NCBI GenBank assembly: GCA_028287785.1
Contig: JAQBOZ010000003.1
Span: forward strand, 1 to 64,000
Source of the DNA: Chlorobiota bacterium
GTDB taxonomy: Bacteria; Bacteroidota; Ignavibacteria; OLB7
Length of the DNA stretch: 64,000 bases
Direction: 5' to 3'
This document shows, in pieces, positions 20,090 to 51,105 of this stretch. Each line of letters opens with the position of its first letter. Position 1 is the first letter of the stretch. The notes beneath the pieces were generated by a model. That model worked only from the letters and a program-made list of their open reading frames with translations. It was not told the origin of the DNA and made no database searches. The position numbers were made by a program, and so were the translations under genes.

Positions 20090-21460
20090 CTACAATGCCC
20101 GCGGCTCCGGGTTCCCCCGCTTTCCGCCGAAGATCCGTTTCAACCAGTTGAACTCGAAATTGAAGGTGACGGTTTCCCGCGAGACAAGGACCGTCAGGTA
20201 GGCCCCGAGCGCGCCGATCACCACATCCGCCATCCACATGGCAACCGATGGCGGAAGCACCGCGCGGTCGGCGAGCTTTTCGCCGGAGACCAGGCAGGAC
20301 CAGTAGACGACGAAGAAGCCGAGCGCGATGGCGGCCGATACGCCGAAGTTGCCACGACGAACGAGAATCCCCAGCGGCGCGCCGACAAAGACGAAGACGA
20401 GGCAGGCGGCGGGAATCGAATATTTCTTGTAGATCTCCACCAGATACTGATCGGCGATCTTCCCCTGCTCCACCTTTGTGACGCTCTCCGATTCCACCTG
20501 CGAGCGGAACGTCGAGAGATCGCTCAACGCCAGGCCGGCGGCATCCCGCCCGCTGACCGGCGGCCGTCCCGTATCCGAAAACGTCTGCCGGGCACGGGCC
20601 GTATGCTTGATGAACATCGTATCGATATTCAGATCAGCCCGATGGCTTATCGCCAGCGCGGTATCGGCAATCGCGCGCATCGCCTTGATATCCATCGTCC
20701 GGTCGGTCCTTCCCAGCCGCGTGGGATCGGAGCGATTGAACGCAAACCCCTCGGTGTTGATCGAAACCTGATGCTCGTCGAACGCCAGCTTTCTGAACTC
20801 CCCCTGATTTCTCCTGTTCACCTGATGGATTTCCCCCTGATAGAAGGTCATCACCAGCTTGCTGAAATCGCCGTTGAACCGGAGCCGCGCACGCTTCGCG
20901 TTGATGACATTGAGGATATCGCCGTCCTGCCCGTAGATCGTGACGTTGTAGAGATCATTGTTGACCCTGTCCACCTGCCGCGCCAGAATGCTGTAGCCCT
21001 GAAGCGTGCTGAACCGACCCGGATCGATGGCGAAAGTGGGCTTCAACTGCTTGATGTCGTTCTGAAGAACGTAGGCGCGCTGGTTGGTTTCCGGGAGGAT
21101 CTTATCGTTGAAATAGAAGAGCGCGCCGAAGAGCGCAAGCCCGCCGATGATCGATGGAAGCATGGCGCGAAACGCGCTGCCGCCGGAGCTTTTGATGATG
21201 GTCAGCTCGTTGTTGCCGCTCAGTTTTCCATACGCCATCAGCGTGGCAACAAGCACCCCCATCGGCACGGCAAGCACCAGCATCCACGCCATGTTGTAGG
21301 CGATGAACTGAAGGATGATCCAGTAGCTGAGCCCCTTGCCGACCAGATCGTTCAGCGACTTGAAGACGAACTGGAGGAGAAAAATAAAGACGACCGCGCT
21401 CGTGCCGAAAATGAACGGCCCGATGTGAAGTCGAATGATATACCACGTCAGGCGTATCAC
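20090..21460 (-). CDS. LptF/LptG family lipopolysaccharide export permease
   Basis: The YjgP/YjgQ family forms the inner-membrane LptF/LptG subunits that, with the LptB ATPase, extract LPS and pass it to LptC/LptA. This 456-residue protein shows the family order. Three N-terminal helices include MAWMLVLAVPMGVLVATLMAYGKLSGNNELTIIKSSG, whose last part is the coupling helix. A periplasmic beta-jellyroll domain (about 130-330) has an unusual insert of about 60 residues, and three C-terminal helices include IPAACLVFVFVGAPLGILVRRGN. Only one copy is in the window. Whether it is F or G cannot be told. Its presence supports an LPS-bearing outer membrane. Confidence 0.9.
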   Translation of the reverse strand: MIRLTWYIIRLHIGPFIFGTSAVVFIFLLQFVFKSLNDLVGKGLSYWIILQFIAYNMAWMLVLAVPMGVLVATLMAYGKLSGNNELTIIKSSGGSAFRAMLPSIIGGLALFGALFYFNDKILPETNQRAYVLQNDIKQLKPTFAIDPGRFSTLQGYSILARQVDRVNNDLYNVTIYGQDGDILNVINAKRARLRFNGDFSKLVMTFYQGEIHQVNRRNQGEFRKLAFDEHQVSINTEGFAFNRSDPTRLGRTDRTMDIKAMRAIADTALAISHRADLNIDTMFIKHTARARQTFSDTGRPPVSGRDAAGLALSDLSTFRSQVESESVTKVEQGKIADQYLVEIYKKYSIPAACLVFVFVGAPLGILVRRGNFGVSAAIALGFFVVYWSCLVSGEKLADRAVLPPSVAMWMADVVIGALGAYLTVLVSRETVTFNFEFNWLKRIFGGKRGNPEPRAL

Positions 21461-21729
21461 GCGGAAATGTCCTTAATGGATGGAACGGAATGCCCCGGAA
21501 GCTCCCGGACGGCGGACTGGCTACCTGGCCCGGCCACAGGCCGCTGGAGATAATGGCAACACGCCAAGGTACGAAATTCCATTTGAGGCGATCGATCGAT
21601 GCTTCCGGTAACCGATGGCCGGGATAATCGTGGAAGCGATGCGAACGGGCGGGAAGATGCTCGATCGCATCGCATAACGCATCCTCCCGCACGGATGTTC
21701 CAGGCCCGCGCCGAATTCAATATCGAACT

Positions 21730-22461
21730 ATGAAGACGATTCTCTCGCTCGCAATCCTGTGTGCCGCATCCCTTGCCGCCCATGCCCGGAAGGATGGAGC
21801 GATCATCATAACCCGGCTGACCGGGAATTTCTATATCTACACCACCTACAGGGATCTCGGCGGGCATCCATTCCCCTCCAACAGCATGTACGTGGTAACC
21901 GATAGCGGCGTGGTGATGATCGATACGCCGTGGAACGCGGAGCAGACCGGCCCGCTCCTCGACTCGATCCGGCAACGACATCACATGAACGTGGTGATCT
22001 GCCTGAGCACGCACTATCATGAGGACCGGACGGCGGGGCTCGATGTGCTGAGGGAGCGGGGAATACCGACCTACTCCACGGAACAGACGCTGGAACTCTG
22101 TCGCAAAAAATCGGAAAAGCAGGCGACGCACGCATTTACGCGCGACACCACATTTTCCGTGGGCGGCCTGCAGTTCCAGACATTCTATCCGGGCGCGGGA
22201 CACAGCAGTGATAATATCGTGGTCTGGTTTCCGAAGGAGAAAATTCTTTATGGCGGCTGCTTCGTGAAAAGCGTTGAAGCAAATGATCTGGGAAACATGG
22301 CCGACGCGGATATCCACGCGTGGCCGACCTCGATGAAAAAAGTGATCAGGAAATTTCGGAATCCGGCGTTTGTCATTCCCGGCCATCAGAGCTGGAAGAG
22401 CGTCAAATCACCGCGGCATACGCTGGATCTGCTGCGGAAGGCTGGGAGTGGAAAAGGATGA
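21730..22461 (+). CDS. Subclass B1 metallo-beta-lactamase
   Basis: This periplasmic zinc hydrolase would open beta-lactam rings, including carbapenems. 243 residues with a signal peptide (MKTILSLAILCAASLAAHA). All B1 ligands are present: the Zn1 site His95, His97 and His158 (THYHEDR; GAGHSSDN) and the Zn2 site Asp99, Cys177 and His219 (GGCFVKS; IPGHQSW). Lys180, three residues after the Cys, matches the B1 carboxylate-binding Lys. The STHYHEDRTAGL and GGCFVKS forms are closest in style to chromosomal enzymes of Bacteroidota (BlaB/IND type). The length is standard, nothing is truncated, and composition matches its neighbours, so it looks like a resident gene. Activity is inferred from motifs only. 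Confidence 0.93.
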   Translation: MKTILSLAILCAASLAAHARKDGAIIITRLTGNFYIYTTYRDLGGHPFPSNSMYVVTDSGVVMIDTPWNAEQTGPLLDSIRQRHHMNVVICLSTHYHEDRTAGLDVLRERGIPTYSTEQTLELCRKKSEKQATHAFTRDTTFSVGGLQFQTFYPGAGHSSDNIVVWFPKEKILYGGCFVKSVEANDLGNMADADIHAWPTSMKKVIRKFRNPAFVIPGHQSWKSVKSPRHTLDLLRKAGSGKG

Positions 22462-22495: not shown

Positions 22496-22846
22496 TTATT
22501 CCGTTTCGTTTATCGGGGTGGCCCTGAATAATGGTATAAGCGCGGCCACCGTCATCAGCGCAAGAAAAGCCGGCCCGAACGTTTTAATCGGCTCATGGTC
22601 GATGCCACCGATAATAGCGTCCCCGCTCTGCACAAGGATCATGATAAATGCCACCGCCAGAAGCCCGGCACGCGAACGAAGAACCACCACCAGAATAGAG
22701 ACAAGCGCCAGCGAAATACTGCGACTGGTCGGGGCGCTGGCAGGAGTAACCACCGCGCAAATCCAGAACTGACGCCATTTACCATGACCGACCGGTTGTG
22801 AGAGCATATGTTTACTACCGGATATTATCGCCACATCACTGCTCAT
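22496..22846 (-). CDS. Small membrane protein (possibly DUF4267-like)
   Basis: 116 residues with two to three membrane helices in the C-terminal two thirds (SLALVSILVVVLRSRAGLLA, AFIMILVQSGDAIIG, FGPAFLALMTVAALIPLF). The pattern of a short LRSR loop followed by a helix with GDAI resembles small DUF4267 proteins, but the first helix expected for that family is missing. The N-terminus is polar. The start ATG overlaps the stop of the upstream gene (22836), implying coupling. It may be N-terminally truncated or use an internal start (22807 region). Confidence 0.5.
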   Translation of the reverse strand: MSSDVAIISGSKHMLSQPVGHGKWRQFWICAVVTPASAPTSRSISLALVSILVVVLRSRAGLLAVAFIMILVQSGDAIIGGIDHEPIKTFGPAFLALMTVAALIPLFRATPINETE

Positions 22847-24782
22847 CCTCCATCGGCGGCCAGGGCATTCCCGGATTCTGTATCCGATATTTCATCTCCC
22901 AGATTTTCCGCTGATAATGTTCAAAGCGCTCCGGCTTCACCCTGGCAAGCGTCTGAAACGCCTGCATCGCCTCGGCATACGCGCCCTGAGCCACAAGAAT
23001 ATTTGCCAGTGTATCGCTGACGATCGACGGCTCGAAGACCGGACGCTGTTCGTAATCCTCCACCACGGGAATGCGCGCGTTTTCCAGACGGCGCGCAAGC
23101 TCCTCCAGCGGCGTCAGCTTCGGCGGTTCGGGCTCGGGATCAGGATCGGGCTGAATGATCTGTTCGGGCAATTCCAATTCCTGCGTGATCCGGGCAACGG
23201 GTTCCGGCAATTCCGGCTCCTGCTCGATCGGCGGAGCCGGTTCAGGATCGGGCACTGCCTCCGGCTCCGGTATGGAAGGCTCCTCTGTTTCGACGTGGAC
23301 CACATCCAACTCTTCCGGCATTATCTCCGGCTTGTCGGGACGGGCGGACTCCGGCTGGCGCTCGGCGCGCACGGGCGGGATATCCTCGCCCGCGACCGCG
23401 CCGATGGCGTCGAGCGTGGGAAGGGGAAGGAAGACGGGGGGATCGGAGATACGGCGCTGGCGGACGGGTAGCTCCGGCTGCGGCATCGGCTCACTGATCA
23501 GCGGAGCGATGGACTGGCCGCGGAACTGATCCTCGTGCCGGAGCGGCGCGAACTCCAGGCCGGGAATCAACCGGAGATTCGAACTGCGGAGACGGGAGAT
23601 GCTCTTCCCCATGTGAAGCGCCAGCGAGAGGGGACGGGGACGTTCAGGCACCGGGACATCGCGCCCCACCGATTCACCCCCCTCGGGCTCCCCCCGCTCG
23701 ACCGTTGCAGGCCCAAGCCCAAGCTCCTGAAGAATCGTCGTGATCTCCAGCGCCTCCTCGGGAGGAAGCGGAATCGGGGCGGTTTCCATGTCCAGCGCAG
23801 AAATCTCCGGCAGCGCGATCGAATCATCGTCCTCGCCATACGTCACCAGCTCGCCGCCGGCTTCGGAGAACGAAGATGCCGGAGGATGCTCGCGATCCAG
23901 CCGGGCGGCCAGACGGTCGAGCGCGTCGATATCGGAGAGATCGGCATCGCGCGCGTTCTCCAGCGCCGGAAGCGGCTCGGAGGCTTCGAGCGGCTCAATT
24001 GATTCGATCGATTCAGATGCTTCGAGCGGCTCGGAGGCTTCGACTGCTTCAAACGCTTCCATCGACTCCGCGTCCCCAGGCTCGACAATCCCCGGTTCGA
24101 CGATCTCGGGCTCCGCGATCTCCGGCTCCAGAATCTCCGGCTCCGCAATCTCAGGTTCCAGAATTTCCGGTTCCGAGATCTCCGGTTCCAGAATCTCAGG
24201 CTCAGCGATCTCCGGTTCCAGAATTTCCGGTTCCGAGATTTCCGGCTCCAGAATCTCAGGCTCCGCGATCTTCGGTTCCAGAATCCCGGGCTCCAGAATC
24301 TCCGGTTCCATGATCTCGGGCTCGGCAGTCACGGGCGTCTCAACCGCGGGCGTTTCATTCACGGCCTGGGGCGGCTCGGTTTCGGGGAACTGTTCCACAC
24401 CGGCATTCACCTCGGGAACATCAGCCTGATCGGTCGCGGCGATTTCCGGGATCGTCTCGAACGCATCGGCGGCGGCATCGCGCGCGGAAACCGCATCCCC
24501 TCCGGCGAGCTTCTGATAGAGCACGGTCAGGCGCTGCGAACCGGTCCGGCGATATCCATCGCGAAGGACATTGAGCGCGCGATCCGCCTCCCCCAGCTTG
24601 AAATAGGCTCGCGCCAGGGTGACATACCCGGCGGGATGTTTGGGAAAACTGCCAAGACCCCGCTTGCATATCTCCACGGCGCGCGCGACCTCACCGGAGG
24701 CAAGCGACCGCTCCGCTTCGAGCGCGAAGGAGGCGTTGGAACGGGAGGCGCGACTGGATTGTACTCGTCGAATAACCGGCAT
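22836..24782 (-). CDS. TPR protein with long Glu/Pro-rich pentapeptide-repeat linker
   Basis: 648 residues. An N-terminal TPR pair (about 15-92, ALEAERSLASGEVARAVEICKRG and YVTLARAYFKLGEADRALNVLRDGY) is followed by a very acidic, presumably disordered region. That region contains 17 consecutive EPEIx-type pentapeptides (154-238) and then EASEPLEASES-type repeats. A second Glu/Pro-rich stretch lies near 490-570, and a C-terminal TPR motif (SIVSDTLANILVAQGAYAEAMQAFQTLARVKPERFEHY) ends the protein. No signal peptide or membrane helix is seen, so it is cytosolic. I infer a spacer protein holding two TPR binding modules apart. No specific partner can be named. Confidence 0.75.
   Translation of the reverse strand: MPVIRRVQSSRASRSNASFALEAERSLASGEVARAVEICKRGLGSFPKHPAGYVTLARAYFKLGEADRALNVLRDGYRRTGSQRLTVLYQKLAGGDAVSARDAAADAFETIPEIAATDQADVPEVNAGVEQFPETEPPQAVNETPAVETPVTAEPEIMEPEILEPGILEPKIAEPEILEPEISEPEILEPEIAEPEILEPEISEPEILEPEIAEPEILEPEIAEPEIVEPGIVEPGDAESMEAFEAVEASEPLEASESIESIEPLEASEPLPALENARDADLSDIDALDRLAARLDREHPPASSFSEAGGELVTYGEDDDSIALPEISALDMETAPIPLPPEEALEITTILQELGLGPATVERGEPEGGESVGRDVPVPERPRPLSLALHMGKSISRLRSSNLRLIPGLEFAPLRHEDQFRGQSIAPLISEPMPQPELPVRQRRISDPPVFLPLPTLDAIGAVAGEDIPPVRAERQPESARPDKPEIMPEELDVVHVETEEPSIPEPEAVPDPEPAPPIEQEPELPEPVARITQELELPEQIIQPDPDPEPEPPKLTPLEELARRLENARIPVVEDYEQRPVFEPSIVSDTLANILVAQGAYAEAMQAFQTLARVKPERFEHYQRKIWEMKYRIQNPGMPWPPMEDEQ
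24069..24323 (-). repeat. 15-bp coding tandem repeat (EPEIx pentapeptides)
   Basis: Seventeen tandem 15-base units encode EPEI followed by L, A, S, M or V. The higher-order order is mostly 30 bases (EPEIL plus EPEIA or EPEIS), with degenerate units at both ends (EPGIL, EPKIA, EPGIV, EPGDA). Synonymous differences between units show it is not a very recent expansion. Copy number is likely to vary between strains. Confidence 0.92.
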
Positions 24783-24853: not shown

Positions 24854-25855
24854 CTATCCCCAGAGTGGATCGCGTTCACCCGCGATCTCCTCCTGCTGGT
24901 TTCGCAGATCGCGAATCTCCCCCTTCCAGAACGATTCGGTCCCCCATCCGGGAGAGAGCCGCGCAAAACCGCCATCGGCGACCTGGGCGGCGCACCATGC
25001 GGTGAAGTGGATATAGCGCATGGCGCGGAGCGGCTCGATCAGCCGCAGCGTCCGGCGGTCGAAACTCCTGAAGGTCTCATATCCCTCCATGAAGAAATCG
25101 ATCTCCACCAGCGATTCGCTCTTGTGCCCCGGCAGGAGCATCCAGAGATCCTGGATGGGAGGGCCGACGGCCATGTCATCGAAATCGATCAGGTAGAATG
25201 ACTCATCGGGACGATAGACGATGTTGGCGCGGTGGCAATCGCCATGAATCCGTATCAGCTCGCACTCCTCGAACATCGGCTCGATCTGCTGGATGGTATC
25301 GTGGACGACACGCTCGTACTGGCCGCGCAGGTCGCGAGGAAGCACGCCTGAACGGAGGATGAAGTCCAGGTTGGCGCGGGTCGATCCCCGCGGCGTCATG
25401 GTGATCCGGTTGCGCGGCGGATGGACGGCGCCGACGGCGTGGACGCGCGCCAGCAGACGCCCCAGCTCCTCCCACTGATCATCGGTCGGCTCGTCGCAGG
25501 AACGGCCGAGCTTTTTCTGAAAAGCGGTGAAGTACATCCCATCCTGCTCGTGGAGCGTGGCCCCGTCGGCAAACGGAAGCGGGGGGATCACCGGTATCTC
25601 CAGCTCGGCCAGCTCGGTGAGAAACTCGTGCTCGTCCAGAAGCGCCGTCCGGTTCCATCGTCCCGGACGGTAGAATTTGGCGATGATGCCATCGCCGTTT
25701 TCCAGCTTCAGCTCGAAGACGCGGTTGATATAGCTGTTGAGCGGGCGGCAGAGATTCGTGCATCGCTGGCCGAGCGATTTCTCGATCAGGTCGATGACGA
25801 CATCCGGGGTGAGCGCGGAAAACCCGGTCAGGCGTGCGGTCTGTTCCATTGCCAT
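24854..25855 (-). CDS. srkA: SrkA/YihE-type serine/threonine protein kinase
   Basis: 333 residues from the ATG at 25855 (MAMEQ); upstream in-frame starts would add an unconserved tail. The choline-kinase-like fold is evident: the nucleotide-binding lysine region GIIAKFYRPGRWNRTALLDEHEF, the catalytic loop HGDCHRAN (204-211, Asp206) and the metal motif DFDD (224-227). The FYRPGRW and GDCHRANI forms match the stress-response kinase SrkA (YihE/RdoA), as does the length of about 330. The E. coli protein protects against cell death under stress. Here the gene stands alone between a TPR gene and a lamin-tail gene. Confidence 0.88.
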   Translation of the reverse strand: MAMEQTARLTGFSALTPDVVIDLIEKSLGQRCTNLCRPLNSYINRVFELKLENGDGIIAKFYRPGRWNRTALLDEHEFLTELAELEIPVIPPLPFADGATLHEQDGMYFTAFQKKLGRSCDEPTDDQWEELGRLLARVHAVGAVHPPRNRITMTPRGSTRANLDFILRSGVLPRDLRGQYERVVHDTIQQIEPMFEECELIRIHGDCHRANIVYRPDESFYLIDFDDMAVGPPIQDLWMLLPGHKSESLVEIDFFMEGYETFRSFDRRTLRLIEPLRAMRYIHFTAWCAAQVADGGFARLSPGWGTESFWKGEIRDLRNQQEEIAGERDPLWG

Positions 25856-26029
25856 GCGTGATCGAAATTGCCTCGTGCATCGGAATCCCCGCGTCTCCGG
25901 CAAACTGATGGTTGGCCGGAGACGCGGAGAGTTTCCGGAGAAGATGACGAAGTCCCGGGCATTCTCAAAGTTTCCGGCGAACCGCGACGCCATCAACCCG
26001 CCCGATCGGGATCGCTTCGCGATCGCTTT

Positions 26030-49294: not shown

Positions 49295-49615
49295 ATGAAT
49301 TTAAGACGAGACGTATTTCAAGCCATAGCAGACCCGACAAGAAGAGCCATACTTCTATTGGTGGCCTCACAAGCCATGACTGCCGGAGCCATAGCTTCAA
49401 ACTTTGACACGGCAAGGCCGACCGTTTCAAAACACCTGCAAATACTCACCGAGTGCGAATTGCTCGAACAAGAGCAAAACGGCAGGGAGATTTACTATCA
49501 TATCAACGCAAAAAAAATGAAAGAGGTGGCCGATTTCATCGAACCATTCCGCAAGATGTGGGAAGACAGATTCAACAAACTGGAAACCATAATGAAAAAA
49601 CATAAAAGCAGATAA
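49295..49615 (+). CDS. ArsR-family transcriptional regulator
   Basis: 106 residues from the ATG at 49295 (a TTG seven codons earlier lies inside the promoter). Winged helix-turn-helix: [19 protein letters not shown], the recognition helix region [21 protein letters not shown] and the wing [16 protein letters not shown]. No Cys pair typical of arsenite or zinc sensing is present, so it belongs to the metal-independent group often next to SRPBCC genes. It probably represses this operon through the adjacent operator. Codon and base composition are AT-richer than the surrounding chromosome. Confidence 0.93.
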
Positions 49616-49616
49616 G

Positions 49617-50081
49617 ATGGAACAAAAAACAAGGATCAGGGCCGAAGACGGCAGACAGGAACTAGTGATAACAAGGGAATTCGATTTGCCATTGGAATTG
49701 CTTTTTAAAGCGTATGTGGAGCCCGGCATAGTCGAGCAATGGATGGGAACGAAAGTGCTGAAGCTTGAAAATAAAAAGCACGGCAGTTGGCAATTTGAAA
49801 CAACCGATGCTCAAGGAAACAGATACAGGTGGAATGGGGTGATCCATGAGTTTGCTCCGAACCGGAAAATCACACGAACCTTCGAATTTGAGGATATGCC
49901 TTTTGGCGTTCAACTCGAGTTCCTGGAATTCGAGCAACTTACCGACGGCACCAGCAGACTCAGCATGCACATAGTATATGAATCCGTCACGCACAGAGAC
50001 CAGATGCTGCGAATAGGGATGGCTCAAGGGATGAATATGGCGCATAACCGTTTACAGGACATCGCAAGCAAATCAGAATAG
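49617..50081 (+). CDS. SRPBCC (AHSA1-like) domain protein
   Basis: 154 residues, starting one base after the ArsR stop. AHSA1/START-like hydrophobic-pocket fold: LVITREFDLPLELLFKAYVEPGIVEQWMGTK, then KHGSWQFETTDAQGNRYRWNGVIHEFAPNRKITRTFEFEDMP and a C-terminal helix (RDQMLRIGMAQGMNMAHNRLQD). ArsR plus SRPBCC pairs are very common. The protein binds a small hydrophobic ligand or acts as a co-chaperone-like domain, but no ligand is known. Second gene of the imported cassette. Confidence 0.9.
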   Translation: MEQKTRIRAEDGRQELVITREFDLPLELLFKAYVEPGIVEQWMGTKVLKLENKKHGSWQFETTDAQGNRYRWNGVIHEFAPNRKITRTFEFEDMPFGVQLEFLEFEQLTDGTSRLSMHIVYESVTHRDQMLRIGMAQGMNMAHNRLQDIASKSE

Positions 50082-50087
50082 CACATC

Positions 50088-50471
50088 ATGACAAAGAGAA
50101 ATAAAATCATCTATTGGATTTCCACTGTCTGGCTTGCATTGGGAATGCTGGCAAGTGGCTTGCAGCAGATATTTCACATGAAAGGGTTTGTTGATATAAT
50201 TACTCATTTAGGGTATCCATTATATTTCTCGTACATCCTCGGTGTCTGGAAAATACTTGGAGTAGCAGCTATTGTAATTCCAAAGTTCAGCCTGTTGAAG
50301 GAATGGGCGTATGCGGGCTTTTTCTTTGCCATGTCGGGAGCGGCATTTTCGCATATCGCATCGGGTGATTCCATAAGTGAAACAGCTCCCTCGCTGGTGC
50401 TTCTGACCCTGACTGTTGTATCGTGGTATTTCAGACCTGCCGACAGGAACATCACTTCAACCAATCGATAA
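50088..50471 (+). CDS. DoxX-family membrane protein
   Basis: 127 residues with four predicted membrane helices (IIYWISTVWLALGMLASGLQQIF; FSYILGVWKILGVAAIVIP; WAYAGFFFAMSGAAFSHIASG; LVLLTLTVVSWYF). The ...HLGYPLYFSYILGVWKILG and AYAGFFFAMSGAAFSHIASGD patterns are DoxX/DoxX-like. Members of this family often accompany ArsR/SRPBCC genes. Quinol-oxidase subunit and redox-partner roles are described for relatives, but not assignable here. It starts six bases after the SRPBCC stop. Confidence 0.9.
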   Translation: MTKRNKIIYWISTVWLALGMLASGLQQIFHMKGFVDIITHLGYPLYFSYILGVWKILGVAAIVIPKFSLLKEWAYAGFFFAMSGAAFSHIASGDSISETAPSLVLLTLTVVSWYFRPADRNITSTNR

Positions 50472-50476
50472 ATAGA

Positions 50477-51058
50477 ATGAATCCCAAGGTCGACAGATAT
50501 CTGAGCAAAGCCAAAAAATGGCAGAAGGAATTGGAGAAATTGAGGATGACCATTCTCGACTGTCACCTGACCGAAGAATTGAAATGGGGCGTTCCCTGTT
50601 ACACGTTTCAGGAAAGCAACGTAGTTTTAATACATGCGTTTAAAGAATACTGTGCGATTCTGTTTGTCAAAGGTGCATTGTTGAATGATGCCAATGGCAT
50701 TCTAATCCAGCAAACGAAGAACACGCAGGCGGCCCGCCAGATCCGGTTCACCGATGTTCGAGAAATAGTTGAGATGGAAGATGTCCTGAAAGCCTGCATT
50801 TATGAAGCCATTGAAGTGGAAAAAGCCGGCCTGAAAGTGGAGTTCAAGAAGGACACGGAATTCATAATCCCTGAAGAATTTCAAAATACATTAGATGAAA
50901 TCCCCGCCTTGAAAACCGCTTTCGACGCGTTGACGCCGGGACGGCAAAGAGGATACATCCTTTATTTTTCCGCGCCCAAACAATCCAGAACCCGGGAGTC
51001 GAGGGTTGAAAAATGCATGCAGCAGATTCTCAATGGAAAGGGACTGAATGATCAGTAA
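50477..51058 (+). CDS. YdeI/OmdA-family protein (DUF1801 domain)
   Basis: 193 residues from the ATG at 50477, five bases after the DoxX stop. N-terminal DUF1801 domain (LSKAKKWQKELEKLRMTILDCHLTEELKWGVPCYTFQESNVVLIHAFKEYCAILFVKGALL). The C-terminal YdeI-type helical half ends LTPGRQRGYILYFSAPKQSRTRESRVEKCMQQILNGKG, the family signature. These are cytosolic proteins of unclear function, frequently found with ArsR cassettes. Last gene of the operon; a terminator follows. Confidence 0.9.
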   Translation: MNPKVDRYLSKAKKWQKELEKLRMTILDCHLTEELKWGVPCYTFQESNVVLIHAFKEYCAILFVKGALLNDANGILIQQTKNTQAARQIRFTDVREIVEMEDVLKACIYEAIEVEKAGLKVEFKKDTEFIIPEEFQNTLDEIPALKTAFDALTPGRQRGYILYFSAPKQSRTRESRVEKCMQQILNGKGLNDQ

Positions 51059-51105
51059 TTCGATGAACAAATAAATCGGTCGGAACCAGACCCCATCCAA
51101 CGGCA

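Follow-up and report, generated by a model that had tools for sequence, protein, structure and literature searches.

B1 metallo-beta-lactamase genes occur in 22.4% of Bacteroidota genomes, and 18 of 21 previously untested B1 genes hydrolysed imipenem when expressed in E. coli, as did all three B1-4 genes tested (PMC5637372). The remaining three of the 21 predicted B1 enzymes failed (PMC5637372), so that intact zinc ligands are no guarantee of activity. Another described enzyme, CAM-2, confers resistance to carbapenems and not to aztreonam (PMC9241868). Here we analyse a gene of this kind (hereafter MBL) in a 64,000-nucleotide stretch of DNA, the window, from a Chlorobiota bacterium whose genome measures 4.75 Mb in 37 contigs and is 95% complete. 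MBL and its surroundings comprise the following features:

20090 to 21460, minus strand: LptF/LptG permease gene (lptG-like), flanking gene, kept in all family members.
21461 to 21729, no strand: divergent intergenic region between lptG (minus) and MBL (plus), presumed promoter region for both, within the inserted segment.
21730 to 22461, plus strand: MBL, subclass B1 metallo-beta-lactamase, 243-aa precursor, signal peptide about residues 1-19, zinc ligands H95, H97, D99, H158, C177 and H219, and K180.
22496 to 22846, minus strand: small ORF listed at 116 aa, with an uncertain real start, convergent with MBL, within the inserted segment.
22836 to 24782, minus strand: TPR protein gene, flanking gene, directly preceding lptG in three relatives.

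The initial annotation described an apparently intact chromosomal subclass B1 enzyme with all six zinc ligands and Lys180 in place and with a signal peptide and length that are normal, and each of these points stands. The MBL ORF is uninterrupted, and the contig that carries it is chromosomal by context: the lptG gene next to it is 69% identical to the lptG of a same-genus genome. His95, His97, Asp99, His158, Cys177, His219 and Lys180 of the precursor (His116, His118, Asp120, His196, Cys221, His263 and Lys224 in BBL numbering) align with the corresponding residues of 83 other B1 sequences, among which the six ligands are invariant, as they are in a second alignment (A1). The protein passes the NCBI curated equivalog for subclass B1 (NF033088) with 263 bits against a cut-off of 200 (E = 2e-78), and its best match among solved structures is BlaB-1 (phmmer, E 7e-61); both matches are far beyond chance. 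It also passes, narrowly, the BlaB/IND/MUS model NF012146 (275 bits, cut-off 270). The curated B1 family model with the highest score is that of CAM (NF033895), at 290 bits where the cut-off is 535, which leaves MBL outside CAM proper. Because the CAM and Flavobacterium models score about equally on relatives from other genomes, the top rank of CAM is no sign of a special tie. Thus, MBL is confirmed as a subclass B1 metallo-beta-lactamase, intact and complete in its active site.

An AlphaFold2 model built from 22 natural sequences (mean pLDDT 91.8) superposes on BlaB at 1.1 A with a TM-score of 0.97 (by target), so that the predicted fold is that of a B1 enzyme. The TM-score to the Pontibacter enzyme 6xfr is 0.96, and every one of the 50 best structural matches listed is a metallo-beta-lactamase. 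The pLDDT of the model is low at residues 1-20, and by eye the N-terminus resembles a Sec signal peptide (MKT..LAILCAASLAAHA/RKDG).

Does MBL act on beta-lactams? The metallo-beta-lactamase superfamily is functionally diverse and some predicted B1 enzymes lack imipenemase activity (PMC5637372), hence a B1-fold hydrolase may have moved from beta-lactams to another substrate. MBL nevertheless departs from none of the columns that are more than 85% conserved in B1, it passes the B1 equivalog, and it keeps both Cys177 and Lys180, which are missing from the MBL-fold paralogues of its own genome. These two residues are marks of B1 beta-lactamases inside the superfamily. We therefore consider a change of substrate very improbable. 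MBL is most likely a periplasmic di-zinc beta-lactamase with carbapenemase activity, as judged from its sequence and predicted fold. The Sec pathway would export the protein to the periplasm, where it would bind two zinc ions, one at site 1 (H95, H97 and H158) and one at site 2 (D99, C177 and H219). A zinc-bound hydroxide would then attack the beta-lactam carbonyl while K180 holds the substrate carboxylate, and from what is described for the family (PMC5637372, PMC9241868) the enzyme would be expected to open penicillins, cephalosporins and carbapenems and to spare aztreonam.

The initial annotation had proposed a B1 phylogeny as a check, and we computed a maximum-likelihood tree from 84 B1 proteins, to which two MBL-fold paralogues of the host genome were added. 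All B1 sequences, MBL included, split from the paralogues with support of 98/96, which places the gene inside B1 and apart from other MBL-fold hydrolases. A second branch (support 98/95) splits off 32 sequences that include NDM-1, VIM-1, IMP-1, GIM-1, DIM-1, KHM-1, CfiA2 and a Bacillus-type enzyme. On the side of MBL lie BlaB, IND-7 (3l6n), the Flavobacterium, Chitinophagaceae and Saprospiraceae enzymes and some enzymes from the host's own class. Since it groups with BlaB and IND, MBL would belong to group B1-4 in the scheme of PMC5637372; the tree gives no firm branching order on the BlaB/IND/Flavobacterium side, and hence no exact position within B1-4. The nearest sequences are 53–59% identical to MBL, and relatives at 48–59% identity are scattered across Bacteroidota: the B1 gene of Saprospiraceae MAG SJ47 (L009) is 59% identical over the best segment and that of genome G685 is 55% identical. 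Identity to named enzymes is 41% for BlaB-1, 39% for IND-7, 37% for GIM-1 and 30% for NDM-1. PMC5637372 worked with a 70% threshold, by which the values for BlaB-1 and IND-7 make MBL a separate family. MBL is ordinary in kind and a new family-level member of B1-4.

A second B1 group in the same class (L034, L036, L069, L071-L075, L080-L083) falls with CfiA in the tree. Together with the MBL type, this group brings the B1 types that circulate in the host's class to at least two.

Is MBL native to its host lineage? The initial annotation noted that its composition matches the neighbourhood and took the gene to be probably native. The first part is borne out: MBL has a GC3 of 0.705, the 10th lowest of 39, where the ORFs of the window average 0.748 (sd 0.083), and its codon use and GC3 both fall inside the range of window genes. 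Elsewhere in the window, GC drops locally from 0.60 to about 0.51 at 49600-51100, where two ORFs look by eye AHSA1/SRPBCC-type-like and YdeI/DUF1801-type-like; this is possibly another acquired segment. The second part finds no support in a comparison with four other genomes of the GTDB family (a same-genus genome and three others, reported 99–100% complete). No B1 gene in any of the four exceeds the curated cut-off, none of them has a match to the MBL protein at E <= 1e-20, and all four keep the lptG-like neighbour at 58–69% identity. In three of them, belonging to two genera (G001, of the same genus, G003 and G004), the TPR gene directly adjoins lptG, and in G001 only ~20 bases separate the TPR stop from the lptG start. 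In the window, both genes are intact and lie 1,375 bases apart. The inserted segment of ~1.37 kb holds MBL, its 269-base upstream region and the small convergent ORF. Conservation in relatives, which the initial annotation had also suggested checking, thus speaks against a gene held at the same locus across genus and family.

With an empty TPR-lptG site in relatives, a single insertion suffices. The alternative is that the same enzyme was already present in the ancestor of the genus or family and was lost in the relatives. Its composition resembles the neighbourhood, and the class does offer a case of vertical inheritance: in genus g15, a B1 gene 50% identical to MBL is found in five genomes, with neighbours common to the three compared, so that in some lineages such a gene can be a stable part of the chromosome. 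Against this, ancestry would require repeated clean losses of one segment from G001, G003 and G004, the B1 gene is missing from all four other family genomes compared, and MBL and its own-class relatives do not form a single group in the tree. We hold ancestry to be unlikely and very much favour horizontal gain over a native origin. The matching composition then means that the gain is not recent or that the donor had a similar composition. Altogether, we give a probability of about 0.88 to the joint reading that MBL is a functional periplasmic B1-4 enzyme and that it was gained horizontally within the ~1.37 kb insert. Transfer inside Bacteroidota would have brought MBL within this segment into the TPR-lptG interval, and enough time would have passed since for its base composition to match that of the host.

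Around the insert, a search for terminal and direct repeats gave short, chance-level matches only, and there are no mobile-element genes among the flanking genes. The small ORF at 22496-22846 matches no family, and the 196 relatives searched contain no intact homologue, only a single weak, stop-bearing match. By eye it looks membrane-protein-like, and none of the other ORFs compared has so low a codon-usage score; the ORF may be of foreign origin, or no gene at all. As for the surrounding DNA, the TPR gene contains an in-frame tandem repeat at 24088-24323 (~8 copies of 30 bases) that encodes a PEI/EPEI-rich low-complexity stretch. Beyond it, an APH-fold kinase (PF01636) is encoded at 24854-25996 on the minus strand; it is probably stress-kinase-like and not a determinant of aminoglycoside resistance.

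The region upstream of MBL (21461..21729) is single copy in the genome and had no match in the five relatives searched. A scan with the sigma-70 consensus detected no recognisable promoter in it, but promoters in Bacteroidota, the host's phylum, deviate from that consensus. The lack of a promoter-like site and the position of MBL between two genes that elsewhere lie side by side would suit a decaying or unexpressed gene, a recent pseudogene made by promoter loss. The ORF is full-length, its codon use is host-like and all conserved B1 residues are kept at ~55% identity to the nearest relatives; together these features make long retention without selection unlikely, and decay is in our view a very remote prospect.

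How widespread are genes of this type? In the class sample, 45 of 391 genomes match MBL at E <= 1e-20 (the second, CfiA-side type included), and 11 genomes besides the host have a match at 48–55% identity; in the phylum sample, 34 of 395 genomes match at E <= 1e-50. The initial annotation had placed the gene in a lineage not known for resistance. This is only half right: the host, though not of class Bacteroidia, belongs to Bacteroidota, and B1 genes are common in that phylum and present in the host's own class. The placement follows from 16S genes: genomes of the host's phylum but of another class (f41/g203) share 97–98% 16S identity with Flavobacterium bizetiae, and the host's 16S is 77–78% identical to those of named Bacteroidia. 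Across the 35 MBL loci compared, no neighbour is shared with the window and local synteny is seen only in genus g15, which indicates that MBL acts alone. A search of 72,556 plasmids returned 2,749 records with a B1 match, all below 60% identity to MBL, and no relative was found in the viral contigs searched. With chromosomal flanks, no repeats and no plasmid relative above 60%, the locus has none of the marks of a plasmid, integron, transposon or ICE, and the earlier speculation that it could be an environmental source of resistance genes finds no direct support. A broader proposal would have MBL, at less than 70% identity to any sequence compared, represent a new B1 family that moves among Bacteroidota classes outside Bacteroidia and forms part of the reservoir from which clinical CAM came; we consider it unlikely.

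These results extend B1 by one well-supported enzyme, from a class of Bacteroidota that has been little studied. They also provide a clear empty-site comparison in which B1-4 genes enter new chromosomes without visible mobile elements, and they caution that a resistance gene with host-like base composition need not be native. Nothing seen here ties MBL to the clinic.

Compared with known systems, MBL resembles the B1-4 enzymes BlaB, IND and MUS and those of Flavobacterium in its ligands, fold, length, signal peptide and chromosomal location, and it passes their shared model. It differs in being only ~41% and 39% identical to BlaB-1 and IND-7 over the mature part, in having a host outside class Bacteroidia and in its sporadic occurrence within the host's family. 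CAM-1 and CAM-2, from a P. aeruginosa ICE and a Pyrinomonadaceae MAG, are also B1-4 enzymes, and theirs is the model with the highest score. MBL nevertheless falls far under the CAM cut-off in this comparison, made with the family model; its GC content is ~56%, whereas the CAM genes have 44–45% (PMC9241868), and its locus lacks ISCR or ICE. L009 and the gene of genome G685 are the nearest relatives by identity or tree path, yet they belong to other classes or families than the host, and L009, the one of the two included in the neighbourhood comparison, has no neighbouring genes in common with the window. Finally, the acquired clinical B1 enzymes NDM, VIM, IMP and GIM share subclass, zinc sites and fold with MBL, but they are 30–37% identical to it and lie across the 98/95 branch.
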